Positions 7,997-39,250 of a stretch of 64,000 nt of DNA are shown piece after piece. The translations under genes were made by a program, and so were the position numbers. Location of the stretch: assembly GCF_000186865.1 (NCBI RefSeq), contig NW_008705588.1, positions 328,489 to 392,488 of the forward strand. The letters are read 5' to 3'. The notes below the pieces were generated by a model. The model saw nothing but the letters and a program-made list of their open reading frames with translations, did no database searches and was not told where the DNA came from. Each line of letters begins with the position of its first letter. Positions within the stretch are counted from its first letter, which is position 1. The stretch comes from Aureococcus anophagefferens (Eukaryota > Sar > Pelagophyceae > Pelagomonadales > Pelagomonadaceae).

Positions 7997-10900
7997 TTAC
8001 GCGACGAAGGCGAGGTGGCGCGCGTTCGCGTCGCGGACGCGCATGAGGTCGACGCGGTCCTTGAGCGGCCCCGCGGCCCCGCGGCGGATGAGGGCGTCGT
8101 GGAACGCCTCGGCGAGCTTCGGGTGCGACGACGCGGCCGCGTCGTCGCCGAGCGCGAGCGCGAGCGGCAGGCGCCAGTCGTCCAGGCGGTAGGCGCCGAC
8201 GAAGGCGAGGAGCGCCGCCGCGAGGGCCTCGTCCTCCGCCGACGCCGGCTCGCCGGCGCCCGGCACGACGCGGAGCGCGAGCGACAGCGCGTCCAGCACG
8301 TGGTCCGCGACGGCCGCGCGCGTCTCGCCCGGCCGGTGGTGGATCTTGACGACGACGCTCGCCGCCGCGGCGCGCCCGGGCCAGGCGGCGTCGACGGCGC
8401 GGAGCGCCGCGCAGAGCTCCGCCGCGCGGCGCACGGACGCCGGCGACGCGGCCGCGAGCAGCCGCGCGACGGCGCGCGCGGCGACCTCGTCCGTGCCCGC
8501 GCCGTCGGTCCAGCCCGCGTCGTCGCCGCCCTCGTCCCACTCGCAGAACGTCACGTCGACGCGGCCCAGCGCGGCGGCGCCGCCGCCCGCGGCCTCGCAG
8601 CGCCGCGCGAAGCGCCAGACGTCCTCCAAACCCGTCGCCGTCGCGGGCTCGCCGTCGTCGCCCGGCGCGGGCCGCGCCTCCGGCGGCGCGCCGAGGCACC
8701 GCCACAGCAGGGCCTTGGCCGCCGCGAGCATCGTCGCGCGGCACACGTCGCCGTCGCCCACGGCGTCGTCGACGGCCGCCGCGGACACGAGAGGCAGCAG
8801 CTCCGCGGCCGTCGCGAGCTCGTCGGCCTTGAGCGCCGCGGCGAAGAGCGCCCGGGGCCGCGCGAGGCGGCCGTCGGCGAAGGCCGCGGCCGCCCGCTCC
8901 GCGCCGCCCGCGAAGAGCGCGTCGAGCTCGGGCGGCTCCAGCGGCCGCGCCGCGCGGCACGCGACGCGCAGCAGGCCCGCGCCGCCGAGGGCGTCGCCCG
9001 CGAGCCAGAGGTAGCAGCGGCTCGCGAAGGCGCGTCGCCCGTCGCCGCGGCTCGCCTCGCGCGCGGCGGCCGCGACGGCCGCCGCGAGCGCGTTCGCGCC
9101 GTCGGCGGCGTCCGCGGCTCGTAGCGCGTCGCGCGCGCGCCGCAGGTCCACGTCCGCCGCCGGGTCCGGCGCCGCGGCGAAGGCGTCGTAGGCAGATTCG
9201 CAGGCGTCGGCCTCCTCGCCGTCGAGGGACGCGGCGTAGCGGCCCGCGCAGCGGCCGACGCAGGAGTCGACGACGGCGGCGAGCGGCGCGCGCGCGTCGC
9301 GCCGCGCGGCGGGCTCGTGGACGTTTCCGCGCCGCGCGGCGACGACGCGCACGAACGCGCCGGCGCCGTCGCCGCCGGCGACCCAGGCCGCGGGGCCGAG
9401 GTCGTCGACGGCGCGCGGCGCCGCGGGCCGCGCGCCCACGGGCCCGTCGAGGCCCGGCGCCCACGCGGCCGCGCGGCCGCCGGAGACGACGAGGACGCCG
9501 CCGAAGCCCGGCCGCGTCGCCAGCGCGTCGACGTCGGCGGCGATGGGGTCCCAGGAGCCCGCGCCGGCCGTCGCGGCGACGCCGCCGCGGCCGTCGAGCA
9601 CCGTGAGGACCGCCGCGCCGTCGCGCGCGCGCGTCGCCCAGGCCGCCGCGACGACGTCGACGTCGGCCTTGCCCGGCGCGAAGTCGCCCGGCGCTACGAC
9701 GTAGAAGGGGTCCTCGTCGCCGACGGTCCGGCCCGCGCGGACGACGAACGCGGAGAGCCCGGCCGCGCCCGCGGCCGCGACGCGGTACGCGTCGCCGTCG
9801 CGGCCGCAGGCCAGGAGCCGCGCCGGCGTCTCGGGCAGGCGCCCGTCGAGGGGCAGGCGCCGGCAGCCGCGTTCCACGTCGTAGAGCTCGAGGCCCCGGT
9901 CCGCCGCGGCCAGCAGGAGCGCGTCGCCGAGCCAGAGCGCGTCGTCGACGCGGGACCCGCGGCAGAAGGGCCACCAGTCGCCGGCGTCGAGGTCGACGAC
10001 GGCGCCGCCGCCGGGCCCGCCGACGGCGAGGCGGTGCGCCCGCCGCGCGGCGGACGTCGGCGCGGCGCCGACGCCGAGGCCTCGGACGGCGAGCTTCGAC
10101 CACGGGCCGCCGCAGTTCGCGACGACGGCGGCGCCGGCGCCGAGAAACACCGCGCCCCGCGACGCCACAACAAAGGGCACGCAGGCGACGCCGCCGGCGG
10201 CGTCGACGACGGCGCACGCGGCGCCGCCGCCGCACCACGCGAGCCCCGCGACGGCCGCGGCCGACGCGCCGCGCGCGAGGACGCCGCGGCCCCGCGCGTC
10301 GAGCGCCACCCATCGCGCGCCCGAGCCGTAGCAGAGCGCGCGCCCCGCCGGCGCCCAGGCGACGCGCGCGCCCGGGCCCAGCGCGCCGTCCGCGAAGCTC
10401 CGCGTCGGCGGCCCGCCCTCCGCGCGGTGCACCGTGAGCCCGCCGACCCAGGCGACGACGACGTGCGCCCCGGACGCCTCCAGCGCGACGCCCACGGCGG
10501 GACCGAAGCCCAGGGACGCGTCGCGGCACGCGCGCCGCCGCCGGCCCAGCGCGGGCTCGAGCCTGGGCAGCGAAAGCGTTCCCGACTTCGAAGGCTCCGA
10601 TCTCGGCCGCTTCCACTCGTTTCGGCTGATTTTTGGACGAGCGATCATCCCTCGGCGCGCTCTCGAAGCGTGGGCGTTTCTTCGGGACTACGCGCGCGGC
10701 GAACACTCACGTTGGAGCGACGTCGAATCACCCCTCGTCGGCGCGGGCTCGAGCAGCGCGACGAACGCGCCCTCGTTGAGGTGGCCGTCGGACATCTGGC
10801 GCACGACGGCGGCGACGAGGCCGCCGGCGCAGGAGCAGGCGTCGTAGACCTCGAGCTCCGTGCCCACGGCGGCGGGCACGACGCGCGTCGCGCCCGCCTT

Positions 10901-33759: not shown

Positions 33760-36700
33760 ATGGACGACGACGTCTCGCAGCTCGTCGACGAGGACGACGC
33801 CGACGCGGCGGCCGTCGACGGCATCCCGGAGCTCGACGCGCTGCGCCTCGAGCACTACCGCACGGAGATGCTGCCGCCCGTGGACCGGCCGGCGCTCGGC
33901 GCCCTGGCGCTCGTCAAGGGCAAGCGCGCCGCCGCGTCCCATATCGCGTGTGACGGCATTAAACAACGCCGCGCCCTAGGTCCTTCGCCGGCGAGCTCAA
34001 GGGCGAGCTCGAGGCGCTGTGCACGCCCACGCGGGGCCTCCGGTGCTTCTACCCGCTCGGCGTCGGCGAGCTCCAGACCGTCTTCGCCTTCAAGAAGCAC
34101 AAGCCCGTGCTCAAGCAGGTGCCCGGCGCGCCACCCGTGGACCGGCGGCGGCGCCGCGAGGCCGAGCGCGCGGCGACGGCCGCGGCGGCCGCCGCGCCCG
34201 AGGTCTGCGAGGTCGCGCTCTTCGAGGACGCGGCCGCGCTCCTCGGCGCGGCGCTCCCCCACGCGGCGGCCCTGCGCCTCGGCCAGCCCGGCCCGCCGGC
34301 GCGGCCGAGGAGCTCCGATGATTTCACCGTGGAGGTCGCGGCCGCGGGCGCGGCGCGGTCCGTGAGCCGGCTCCGCGGCTACCGGCGGAGCGGCGCGGCG
34401 CCCCTCGCGGGACCCGGCGGGTCCGGTGACAGCGCCCTCGTCACGCACTGGGTCGAGGGCGGCACGCTCGAGCGGCGCCTGGCGTCGAAGCGGCGCGTCG
34501 CGGAGCGCGACCTGCACCGGCGGGCGTCGGGGCGGGAACATGGTGATTCAACGTCGCTTCAACGTGAGTGTTCCGCGCGCGCACGTTTCAGCAAAAGCAT
34601 GCACGCGTCGAGACCGTCCGAGAGATGATCGCTCGTCCCAAAATCAGCCGAAACGAGTGAAAAACGGCCGAGATAGGAGCCTTTGGAGTTGGGAATGTCG
34701 CGTCCTGCCCAGGTGGGCGTGCGACCTCTGCCTCGGGCTCTGCGCGGTGCACCGCGGGGGCTACGCCTTCGGCGGGCCGACGCCGGACGTCGTGATCCTG
34801 TCGAAGCAGGGCTTCTGGCCCGAGGACGAGGCGCACCACAAGAAGGAGCTCGAGCGGTACGCGAAGGAGGTCGACGCGCGGAAGCAGGCCGAGGCCGAGG
34901 CGAAGGAGCTCGCCATCGAGCAGAGCCGCAAGGCCGCCGTCGAGGCCGCGGCGACGCCGGACAAGGCCAAGGCCGGCCGCTTCACGAAGAAGCAGGCCGC
35001 GCGCAAGGCCGCGTCGTCGAAGAAGCGGGACGCCGAGGACGACGACGAGGCCGTCAAGGTGCTGACGCTCCCGCCGCCGCCGGGCGTCTGCTACGGCGTG
35101 CTCCTCGGCGACTTCCGGCGCTGCGAGCCCCGGGCGCCGGAGGACCTGCTCTTCCCCGAGGAGGCCGGCGACGGCGCGGCCGCGCGCGACGACGACGACG
35201 ACGACGACGACGACCTCGAGGACGAGACGCTCGGCGCGTCGACGCTCGGCTCCGGCGGCGCGTCGACGCTCGAGGACGCCACGTCGACGCCGGGGCGCCG
35301 CGCGTCCCACGCCGGCGCCGGCTTCCGGGAGCTCGCGCGGCGGCCGCGGCCCGCGTGGTGCCCGGCGAGCTACAGGGCAGCTCAAGAGAGCGAAATTCCC
35401 AACTTCAAAGGCTCCGATCTCGGCCATTTTCCACTCGTTTCGGCTAATTCTTGGACGAGCGATCATCTCTCGGAACGGTCTCGAAGCGTGGCTGCTTTTT
35501 TTGGATCGCGCGCGCGCGGAACACTCACATTGAAGCGACGTTGAATCACCCTTGTGCTGCCCAGGCGAGCTACGAGCCGCCGGAGGGGTTCACGGACCTG
35601 CGCACCAAGGCCGACGCCTGGTGCCTCGGCTGCGTCATCTGGGAGGCGGCGACGCGCGTGCCCCTGGGCGACGGCGGCGCGCCGCCGCTCAAGGATTTGG
35701 GGCTCGAGTGGGCGCTCGCGCGGCTGCCGGCGCGCGTCGGCCAAACGATCCGCGTCTTCCTGCGCGCGGCCCTCGAGCCGGACCCCCACGACCGGGCCAA
35801 CGCCGAGGAGCTCTTCTACGTGTTGGAGCCCGCGCGCGCGAAGCGGCGCCACGCCGTCATCGAGCTCCGGCCGAAGCTCGCCGCGCTCCTGGAGCTCGGC
35901 TCGGGCGGCTTCGCGCGCGTCGCCGAGGCGCTCGGCGGCGGCGACGGCGCAGTCGCCGCCGCCGCCGAGGCGCCGCCGGAGAAGGACGACGCGTCCAAGG
36001 CGTCCAAGGGCGCCGCGAAGCCCGACGCGAAGGCCGCGGAGGCCCCCGGCGGCGAGGCCGTCGAGAAGCCGGCGCCGGAGCGCGCCGCGGCGGACAAGGC
36101 GCCCGCGGCGCGCGAGGCCCCGGCGACGCCGGCGGCGGCGCGCGACGACGACGGGCCCGCGAGCCCGACGACGCCGGCGAAGCCCCGGGCCGCCGTCGTC
36201 TCCGCGGCCGTCGCCGCGCAGCTCGCGTACGCCGCGGGGCGGGAACGGGGCGATTCGACGTCGCTTCGACGCGAGCGTGCCGCGCGCGCGCGTTCCAGCA
36301 CAAGCGTCTCCGCTTCGAGCGCGCTCCGAGAGATGGGCGCTCGTCCCAAAAACCGCCGACACGGGTGGAACACGGCCGAGCGAGGAGCCTTTGGAACGTC
36401 GCGCCCTGTTCCCGCCCAGGTACGACGCGAAGAAGTCCGGCGTCGACGACGACGAGGTCGAGGAGGACGAGGAGATGCCCGACGCCGAGCTCTCGGAGGC
36501 GCAGCGCGCGAAGCGCGCGCGGCGGCGCTTCGAGGAGTCGCTGTCGCCCGAGGCCCTCGCGGGGTGGAAGCGGTCGCTCGCGCGCGTCGAGCGGTACCAC
36601 CGGCGCAAGTGGTGGAACAACCTGCCCGGCGTGCGGCGCCAGCGCATCGAGCGGCGCCGCGCGCGGACCCTGGCGGCCCAGCAGCGCAAGCGCCGCCTCG

Positions 36701-39069
36701 CCGTCGCGCGGCACTGCGCCCTGGCCCACTTCTGGCGCGTCGCGGACGTCGCCAAGTGGGCGAAGATCGCCGCGCGCCGCGCGATCGACTGCCGCGCGCT
36801 GGCGCTGCTGAACCGCGACGGCTGGTACAAGATGCGCCAGCAGCGCAAGCGCGAGGAGGCCGCGGCGAAGCGCGCGAGCCAGGGCCGCTGGGGCGCCAAG
36901 GCCGCGGCCGCGGAGGCCAAAGCGGACGCGGAGGCCGGCGAGGCGAAGAAGGACGCGGAGGAGGCGAAGGCGCCGCCGTCGGGCGGCACCAAGGGCCTGG
37001 GCCGCCAGCCCATCCCGCCCGCGGAGACCGTGGGCGTCCTGCACCGCCTCGAGGACGCGCGCGTGTCCGGCGACGACGACCGGCGGACCGCGCGGCGCGT
37101 CATCGCGGAGTGCAACGCGGACCGCAAGCCCAAGAAGGAGGCCGCGGCGGCAAACGCCGCCATCGACCTCGTCTGGCTCGACGTCGCCGCGCGGCGCTAC
37201 TGCGAGCCCCTCGGCGCGTGCCTCGAGGAGTCGCGCGTCACGGGCCGGAAGTTGTCGGGCGCGATCCGCGCGGCCGACGAGGCCGCGGACCGGGGGCTCA
37301 AGCGCCTGCGGGCGGCGAACTCGCGCTGGCACGCGGGCTACGACATCGAGGAGCAGGACGCGGCGCGCGCGGCGCTCGTCGTCGCGGCCGTCGCGCGGAA
37401 CGAGTTCCTCAGCGAGCCCCTGCTCGAGGCCGCGGCCCTCGCGGAGAAGTACCGCCCGCCGCGCCAGGTCGCCGAGGACGACGAGAAGACGGAGAAGTCG
37501 GGGAAGACGGAGGAGCCCAATGACGAGGAGAAGGCCAAAATCGCGGAGGCCGAGGCCGCCAAGGCCGCGGAGGAGCTCCCCGAGGTGCCCCCGGAGGCGC
37601 ACCCGGAGCGCGAGCGCCAGGCGTTCCTGCTGGCGCTCGTGCTCTACAGCGCCTTCCACGTGACGCACGCGCGCGGCGTCGACGCGCGCGAGGAGTCCGC
37701 GGCGCGGATCCAGGCGCGCGCGCGCGGCCGCGAGGCGCGCGCGCTGGTTAGGCGCATCTACGAGGCCGAGGAGCTCGCCGACGACGAGCTCCGCGCCGCC
37801 GCCGCGGCCCAGGCGGCGCTGGAGCGCGAGGAGGCCGCGCGGCCCGTCGCGCTGCCGCCGCCGCCGCCGCCCGTCCGCGTCGTCGTCTAGCGGGCGCGGT
37901 CCGCGGCGCTGGGCCTGAGCGACGCGCTCCGCGACGTCGCGACGCGCGCGGGCCAGGCGCTCAAGGGCGCCGAGGCGGAGCCCCTGAGCCTCCTGGGCTG
38001 GCTCGGCGCGCCGCCGGACGTCGACGACCCGACGGCGCCGCGCGTTGTCTACCTCGAGCTCGGCCCCGCGGACGACGACGACCCGGAGTTCGACGGCGAC
38101 GCGCGCGACCGCCACCCGCCGGACGCGACCGGCGCGCCGGACCTGCACGCGGCGGTGATCCCGGGCCTGCGGCCGGCGACGACGTACACGGCGGTGCTGC
38201 GCATGACCGCGCGGACGCGGCAGCGGTGCCGGCGCGCGTGCGGCAAGTCCGTGGACTCGAGCCGGCTCCTGCCCCCCGAGGGCGCCGAGCTCGAGCGCGG
38301 CGTGGCGTTTTCCACGTTAGCGGACGCGCCGGACGCGCCGCGGCCGCCGCGCGCGAGCGTCTGCCGGTTACGGGGCGCCGCGGACCTCGCGGCGCTAATC
38401 GCGCCGCGGGGCACCGTGCGCTCGAAAGCAGCGACCCTCGAGGCCTCCGTGAAGCCCCCGGCGGACGTCACCGTCGCCGTGCGCGTCGCCTGGGCGCCGC
38501 CCGCGGCGAACGGCGCGGCGATCAGCGGCTACGCCGTCGACCGCGCGCGCGGCGCGCCGCGGGCGCCGCCGCCGAACGCGCCCGAGGCCTGGACGCGCGT
38601 CCGCGACGTCCACGGCGCCGAGGGCGACCTCGTGGACGTGCCGCCGACGCGGGGCCACGTCTGGTGGTACCGCGTCGCCGCGCGGAACCGCGTCGGCGCG
38701 TCCGACTTCGGGCCGCCGGCCGCCATCGACCTCGCCGAGGAGGCCGTCGAGGCCGCGCCCCACCTCAAGCCCCTGGCGCTCGAGGCCGAGGCGCCCGCGC
38801 TGTTCCTCGAGGCCGCGCCCGCGCCCGCGCCCGCGGCCTTCTGCGCGCCGTGCCCGGCGCCCGCGCCGGCGTCGTCTCTCCCCGAGGCGCCCGCGGACCC
38901 GCTGCCGCCCCTCGGCGGGCCGCTGGCGCGGCTCCGCCAGCGGCGGAAGCGGAAGACGAAGCCCGGCGACGGCGCCGTCGAGGCGAACCTCGCGTCGGGC
39001 CTCTTCTTCCAGGTCCTCGCCACGGACAAGCCCCTGCCGCGGAGCACGATGCGCTCGACGTTTCGCTAA
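33760..39069 (+). CDS. pseudokinase / IQ / fibronectin-III protein, six exons
   Basis: Exons 33760-33935, 33980-34519, 34713-35364, 35565-36226, 36420-37845 and 37891-39069 join to 1544 residues with every phase matching. Introns 1 and 5 are short (44 and 45 bp); introns 2-4 are introners. A protein-kinase-like fold starts near 200 (hinge LVTHWVEGGTLERRL), continues DLCLGLCAVHRGGY where HRD should be, then a long charged insert, LLGDFRRCEP near 371 in place of DFG, and the C-lobe SYEPPEGF with KADAWCLGCVIWE (456-482). Catalytic Asp of HRD and Gly of DFG are missing, so it is probably a pseudokinase. The middle is basic helix; an IQ motif (AARIQARARGREAR) lies near 1102, suggesting calmodulin binding; FN3 units lie about 1192-1260 and 1335-1435 (WAPPAANGAAISGYAV). 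Likely a signalling scaffold. Confidence 0.8.
34520..34712 (+). mobile_element. introner copy B (193-bp intron, GC-AG)
   Basis: Flanks GCGGGCGT (34520-34527) and GTGGGCGT (34713-34720) match at 7 of 8 bases and are read as a target-site duplication with one later change. The donor is GC of the left flank and the acceptor is CCTGCCCAG. The join restores phase 2 (DLHR then WACDLCLGL). The interior GTGATTCAACGTCGCTTCAA and ATCGCTCGTCCCAAAATCAG are the family core. Confidence 0.82.
35365..35564 (-). mobile_element. introner copy C, inserted in the opposite orientation (200 bp, GC-AG)
   Basis: The exact 9-bp repeat GCGAGCTAC lies at 35365 and 35565. The element is reversed relative to copies B and D in the same gene, yet still works as a sense intron because both ends carry the CTGCCCAG-type acceptor when read outward: left GGGCAGCTCAAGAG, right end reversed GGGCAGCACAAGGG (12 of 14). 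The donor is GC (GCGAGC). Phase 0 is restored (WCPASYEPPEGF). Confidence 0.88.
36227..36419 (+). mobile_element. introner copy D (193-bp intron, GT-AG)
   Basis: Flanks GTACGCCGCG (36227) and GTACGACGCG (36420) match 9 of 10. Terminal inverted repeats GGGCGGGAACGGGGCG and, from the right end, GGGCGGGAACAGGGCG match 15 of 16. The donor is GTACGC from the left flank and the acceptor CCGCCCAG. Phase 2 is restored (AAQLAYDAKKS). Internal GT dinucleotides of copies A and B are GC here (GCGATT, GCGAGC), which shows they are not needed for splicing. Confidence 0.88.
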
Positions 39070-39250
39070 GTTATTCTGCTTACATTAGTAAGAGTGTCGT
39101 TCATGAGACTTGAAAACGTGAGTAAAAGCGACAAGACCGATGATGATACAGGTGAGAGTGATGATAAGCATGGTAAGAGGAAAGTTCGGGTTCGAGGAAA
39201 GTCCGCGCGTCCGGATCTCCGGGCGCGCGCGCGCGCGCCCTCGGCCCGTC

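Follow-up and report, generated by a model that had tools for sequence, protein, structure and literature searches.

The window, a 64,000-nucleotide stretch of Aureococcus anophagefferens contig NW_008705588.1 (assembly GCF_000186865.1, positions 328,489 to 392,488), contains a plus-strand gene whose coding sequence is interrupted by three predicted introns, termed B, C and D (Table 1). With the repeat and element of B, C and D deleted, 1113 stop-free codons follow from 33960. The gene product has two related proteins, one in Pelagophyceae sp. CCMP2097 (42%, query coverage 96%) and a second one (40%, coverage 54%); the protein search with this product returned no near-identical annotated protein. 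An additional upstream exon and a short intron likely precede the coding part that begins at 33960. The open frame downstream of D ends with a stop codon at 37888-37890, and homologous proteins go on for several hundred residues (window 37888-39110). Because homologues extend beyond this frame, an additional intron probably lies near its end, just before the stop. The putative assignment of the gene as a kinase is weak, based as it is on a match under the Pfam cut-off (PF00069, 19.3 bits vs 31.7) that covers residues 406-486 only. The homologous protein P0002 has precomputed PF07714 and PF00069 domains.

Table 1 Coordinates of the gene parts, predicted introns, elements and target-site repeats in the window.
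Feature	Position	Strand	Description
Diverged copy	10563..10746	-	184 bp, AG at right end of core; perfect 8-bp repeats GCTCGAGC
Upstream coding sequence before B	33960..34519	+	Open frame and protein homology; start chosen by analyst
Predicted intron B	34520..34712	+	GC-AG, 193 nt, phase 2
Left target-site repeat of B	34520..34527	+	Supplies GC donor
Element proper of B	34528-34712	+	185 bp, putative subfamily R (AG at right end of core)
Right target-site repeat of B	34713..34720	+	First 8 bases of next exon; 7/8 identical to left
Exon B-C	34713..35364	+	652 bp
Predicted intron C	35365..35564	+	GC-AG, 200 nt, phase 0
Left target-site repeat of C (GCGAGCTA)	35365..35372	+	
Element proper of C	35373-35564	+	192 bp, core inverted, putative subfamily L (AG at left end)
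Right target-site repeat of C	35565..35572	+	8/8 identical to left
Exon C-D	35565..36226	+	662 bp
Predicted intron D	36227..36419	+	GT-AG, 193 nt, phase 2
Left target-site repeat of D	36227..36234	+	Supplies GT donor
Element proper of D	36235-36419	+	185 bp, putative subfamily R; most diverged of B, C and D
Right target-site repeat of D	36420..36427	+	7/8 identical to left
Open frame 3' of D	36420..37890	+	Stop codon included; open frame and homology

Each of the three predicted introns begins with the upstream 8-bp direct repeat, followed by the element. As the preliminary description of this stretch had proposed, B, C and D are copies of one core between direct repeats with C inverted, and its coordinates, exon lengths and phases (2, 0, 2) were all recovered here. 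If retained, B and C would introduce in-frame stops at 34626 and 35542, respectively, and D would shift the frame without an in-frame stop. Two homologous proteins (P0001 and P0002) align gap-free across the B and C junctions; at the D junction P0001 is again gap-free and P0002 shows a 2-residue gap. Removal from repeat to repeat does restore the frame, as had been claimed, but this provides no independent evidence of splicing because it is automatic for any insertion that duplicates its target. A long open frame on the minus strand is overlapped at its upstream end by the additional diverged copy, which lies on the same strand.

The genome comprises 49 Mb in 86 contigs, and a kinase stretch of 260 amino acids elsewhere in it shows 100% identity to a protein assigned to A. 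anophagefferens. Searched genome-wide with up to one mismatch allowed, the 23-mer core matched 1152 times (584 forward, 568 reverse), and the reversed control pattern yielded no match. The core is far from chance, and many near-identical copies are dispersed genome-wide. Besides the window, we read L009-L038 (30 loci, ranked by how similar they are to B), L039-L068 (30 taken from the pattern list) and L069-L108 (40 additional stretches). Here a loose core pattern matched 117 times, and 105 copies were delimited without requiring AG. Twelve matches were dropped, two because they were cut by the locus end and ten with ends or repeats under threshold, one of which is unlike any copy; among the dropped copies displayed, several retain the AG end and have a degraded opposite end. 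Classified by the side of the core on which AG lies, left (L) or right (R), the 105 copies break down as follows: the similarity loci contributed 34 (17 L and 17 R), the pattern loci 30 (14 L and 16 R), the additional stretches 39 (28 L and 11 R) and the window two, with B and C counted under L009. The element is exactly 192 bp long in 88 of the 105, and the 8-bp repeats are identical at 8/8 positions in 91 copies, 7/8 in 10, 6/8 in three and 4/8 in one. When 68 copies were delimited earlier, the two repeats agreed closely at 8 positions exactly, and beyond these the agreement fell to background.

All 105 delimited copies have exactly one end that reads AG outward, located to the left of the core in 59 and to the right in 46. 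The other end reads TG in 80 copies, CG in 22, GG in two and TC in one. The two ends are inverted repeats whose outer 8 bp differ mainly at position 2: the acceptor-side end starts with CTGGG in 105/105, and on the donor side position 2 is A in 81/105. Thus the mirrored base is changed on the donor side in 24 copies, to G in 22, to C in two and to T in none, and the acceptor A is changed in none of the 105, as expected if the acceptor is selected after insertion. The same polarity was found in 19 additional copies picked for a left AG end, all of which (19/19) have a non-AG right end. Among the matches listed, an exact right-AG partner was found for 0 of 100 left-AG copies and for 60 of 76 left-non-AG copies, the 76 being those of 100 listed left-non-AG positions that lie within range of the two lists compared. 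Up to C2:2.017 Mb, where all four end lists are complete, we counted 74 copies with one AG end, none with two and none with neither, and 20 were unpaired.

Using exact patterns genome-wide, AG is present in 490/852 left ends and 447/1337 right ends. Under strict polarity, with exactly one AG end per copy, these shares should total 1; their sum of 0.91 counts marginally against it but does not settle the matter, as the left and right patterns catch different sets of copies, and genome-wide there may be a class that lacks AG at both ends. Exact right ends without AG (890) outnumber exact left ends with AG (490). There may be an additional subfamily with another left end.

Based on sequence comparison, the copies appear to form two subfamilies with AG on opposite ends of one core, with C assigned to L and both B and D to R. 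When the outer 8 bases are excluded, 82 of the 88 full-length copies have nearest neighbours from their own class only, four from the other class only and two from both. The class-linked positions include 132, 141, 176 and 178. A tree of the 88 full-length copies requires 6 class changes compared with a mean of 29 after shuffling, and 0 of 500 shuffles gave a number that low; the starred branches of this tree force 3 changes, 57 of its 85 inner branches being weak. L and R are not clean single clades, although a single clade was not rejected (p-AU 0.143). Thus the AG side is for the most part handed down within an element lineage and has switched once or a few times. Mismatches to the consensus of the own and the other subfamily number 15 vs 18 for B, 12 vs 18 for C and 34 vs 38 for D, so that the three fit their own subfamily only moderately better.

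The repeat beside the AG end starts with GC in 62 of the 105 copies and with GT in 43, leaving no copy with another dinucleotide, compared with a background share of GC/GT in the flanks of 0.20. Beyond the first two bases the target repeat is little conserved between copies. Genome-wide, GC or GT follows an exact AG end in 481/490 cases on the left and 436/447 on the right. The few AG ends with another dinucleotide next to them (9/490 left, 11/447 right) may be unspliced or non-genic insertions. Although GT makes up a fraction of just 0.215 of the GC and GT in the flanks, it begins 43/105 target repeats, so that GT donors are preferred even though GC donors are many. GC donors are given as 39.6% of the introns of A. 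anophagefferens and described as unusually common there (PMC3033335), and the 62/105 found here fit this abundance.

The copies also lie in coding sequence read in the sense direction. With a codon model trained on 2060 codons from eight kinase loci, all 104 testable copies (one was too short) gave the highest coding score for their joined flanks in the predicted sense direction. When the flanks were scored apart, both were sense in 96 of the 104 and one flank was antisense in eight. The frame is equal on both sides in all 96 copies with both flanks sense; this is no extra evidence because target duplication dictates the frame, but the agreement in strand does count. As for the controls, a fraction of 0.76 of random 300-mers from the window reached about the 5th percentile of the flank scores on either strand, and shuffled flanks stayed under it. 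If a quarter of the copies were non-coding, about a dozen antisense calls would be expected; none was observed.

We consider it very probable that a short non-autonomous transposon, a MITE-type Aureococcus introner of about 192 bp, has inserted three times into one coding gene, giving B, C and D. A transposase supplied from elsewhere would insert the element and duplicate 8 bp of target. Each element would bring a single splice signal, a CTGCCCAG-type acceptor from one of its two inverted ends, and the donor GC or GT would be the first two bases of the upstream target copy. The spliceosome would then remove repeat and element, leaving the mRNA unchanged. The element is polarised, one end reading AG outward and the other being CAGGG (outward CCCTG) or a decayed form of it, and copies persist almost only with the AG end toward the 3' side of the gene and with a target starting with GC or GT. 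The anatomy, copy number, repeats, end polarity, GC/GT rule, location in sense-coding sequence and lineage signal are direct observations; we infer from them that the introns are spliced, that a transposase of a given type acts, and that selection produced the bias.

Since the ends are inverted repeats that differ mainly at position 2, it would be natural for both ends of one element to serve as acceptors, allowing a single type to splice either way round. This is how the preliminary description explained the reversed copy C: it took both element ends as outward CTGCCCAG-type acceptors and regarded the acceptor as independent of orientation. We give this reading practically no credence, as no delimited copy has two AG ends, none of the listed left-AG copies has an exact right-AG partner, and, read outward, the donor-side end is CCGCCCCG in B, CTGCCCTG in C and CCGCCCCG in D, none of them AG. 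What stands from that interpretation is the predicted introner anatomy, a non-autonomous element with an 8-bp duplication and one co-opted splice site, which agrees with the AG plus GC/GT found in 105/105 copies. The mechanism proposed for C does not; its core would be reversed because C belongs to the sister subfamily with AG on the other end of the core. Overall, orientation relative to the core is free, whereas orientation relative to the AG end is not.

The sense-coding flanks of all testable copies are also what would be obtained if excised introns reverse-spliced into mRNAs and then returned to the genome. Nevertheless, such spread through RNA is barely credible: the first 8 intron bases match the downstream exon of the same copy, and intron bases 3-8 vary between copies although reverse splicing would carry them along. 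Unspliced transposon insertions in a decaying gene would be in line with the weak kinase match. However, this is highly unlikely, as neither the combination of GC/GT and AG in every delimited copy nor the sense-coding location is necessary for transposition, and, apart from the insertions, the gene keeps an open frame that can be aligned to related proteins.

Within the preferred explanation, and compatible with it, lies the sub-question of how the mirror subfamily originated. It is possible, if somewhat unlikely, that it arose from one polarised element, either by recombination between the inverted ends, in which the core flips and the outer ends stay, or by copying of an end module. In support of this, the acceptor sides of both subfamily consensuses have CACCCTTTT.CTGCCCAG in common, the L donor-side right end and the R acceptor-side right end differ also at 176 and 178, and more than one class change is needed on the tree. 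On the other hand, a nearly equal pattern would result if a single base had changed independently at each of the opposite ends, and the classes are distinguished by core positions as well, 132 and 141 among them; the sites are too few to tell. That no copy with two AG ends was seen may reflect history (two sources with opposite ends), end exchange or a constraint on transposon ends. The absence was considered as proof of such a constraint and rejected, as 0 T among the 24 changed donor-side ends fits chance.

Work by Huff, Zilberman and Roy reportedly describes Aureococcus introners as short, non-autonomous elements that provide one of the two splice sites and take the second from the duplicated target; the introners of Micromonas are said to be transposon-made introns in the same work. 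The copies analyzed here resemble the published Aureococcus introners in being short elements with a target duplication, one carried and one co-opted splice site, and no feature tested contradicts their membership; those of Micromonas belong to another lineage. The characteristic length of Aureococcus introners is quoted as about 210 bp in a Pelagomonas paper. The published elements are described with direct repeats and inverted ends of constant length and with canonical splice motifs, whereas 62/105 of the present copies have GC donors. An example from another isolate, Aureococcus sp. (Gozashti et al. 2022; PMC9860276, Fig. 2F), is depicted as carrying both splice sites and adding 12 bp, whereas the present copies would add nothing to the transcript. 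The review PMC10228655 attributes insertion in both orientations to Huff et al. 2016, so that in itself this is no novelty. The observation is a true, well-formed example of a known phenomenon, to which the present analysis brings a corrected mechanism for the reversed copy C. The locus is a clean and easily read instance of intron gain through transposition, in an organism where this has been reported. The correction matters for models, in which the acceptor would be polarised and largely inherited within element lineages. It also raises a question, since a copy with two acceptors could splice in either orientation, yet none was seen.

The 8-bp repeats and CAGGG ends suggest that the introner may belong to the hAT superfamily. 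According to PMC3441728 and PMC10368747, hAT transposons and MITEs have 8-bp target duplications and ends fitting CAGNG. The introner shares the 8-bp target duplication, and one of its ends starts with CAGGG, fitting CAGNG; in contrast, the acceptor end starts with CTGGG and departs from CAGNG at position 2, the target repeat lacks the nTnnnnAn pattern, and no linked hAT transposase was found by the PF05699 and end-pattern searches. The target repeats show little pattern beyond the needs of splicing. If the element is a hAT MITE, the acceptor AG would correspond to a change from CAG to CTG at end position 2, and it could be, although we find this doubtful, that one end tolerates the change and both cannot. 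If true, each source element would have given up one end, on both sides, resulting in two mirror subfamilies and no two-ended one.

The searches for an autonomous partner of the introner found none. A pattern for the introner ends followed by other sequence gave 39 hits compared with 42 for the reversed control; inspected by eye, the 39 hits include no facing pair within 20 kb, and some are variant introner ends. The PF05699 profile gave four matches over the genome with 22.4-24.3 bits, barely above the cut-off of 21.4, and in the 3-kb loci around them introner-like ends occur only with 2 substitutions. One locus (L112/L113; G000:C6, ~240,000) contains an open frame of 1217 amino acids with a hAT dimerisation match barely above cut-off, and the 8.5 kb around this frame contain no introner-like ends with ≤1 substitution. 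The hAT-like open frames at two further loci (L110 and L111), on contigs C1 and C13, are almost the same and may stem from duplication of an element or segment.
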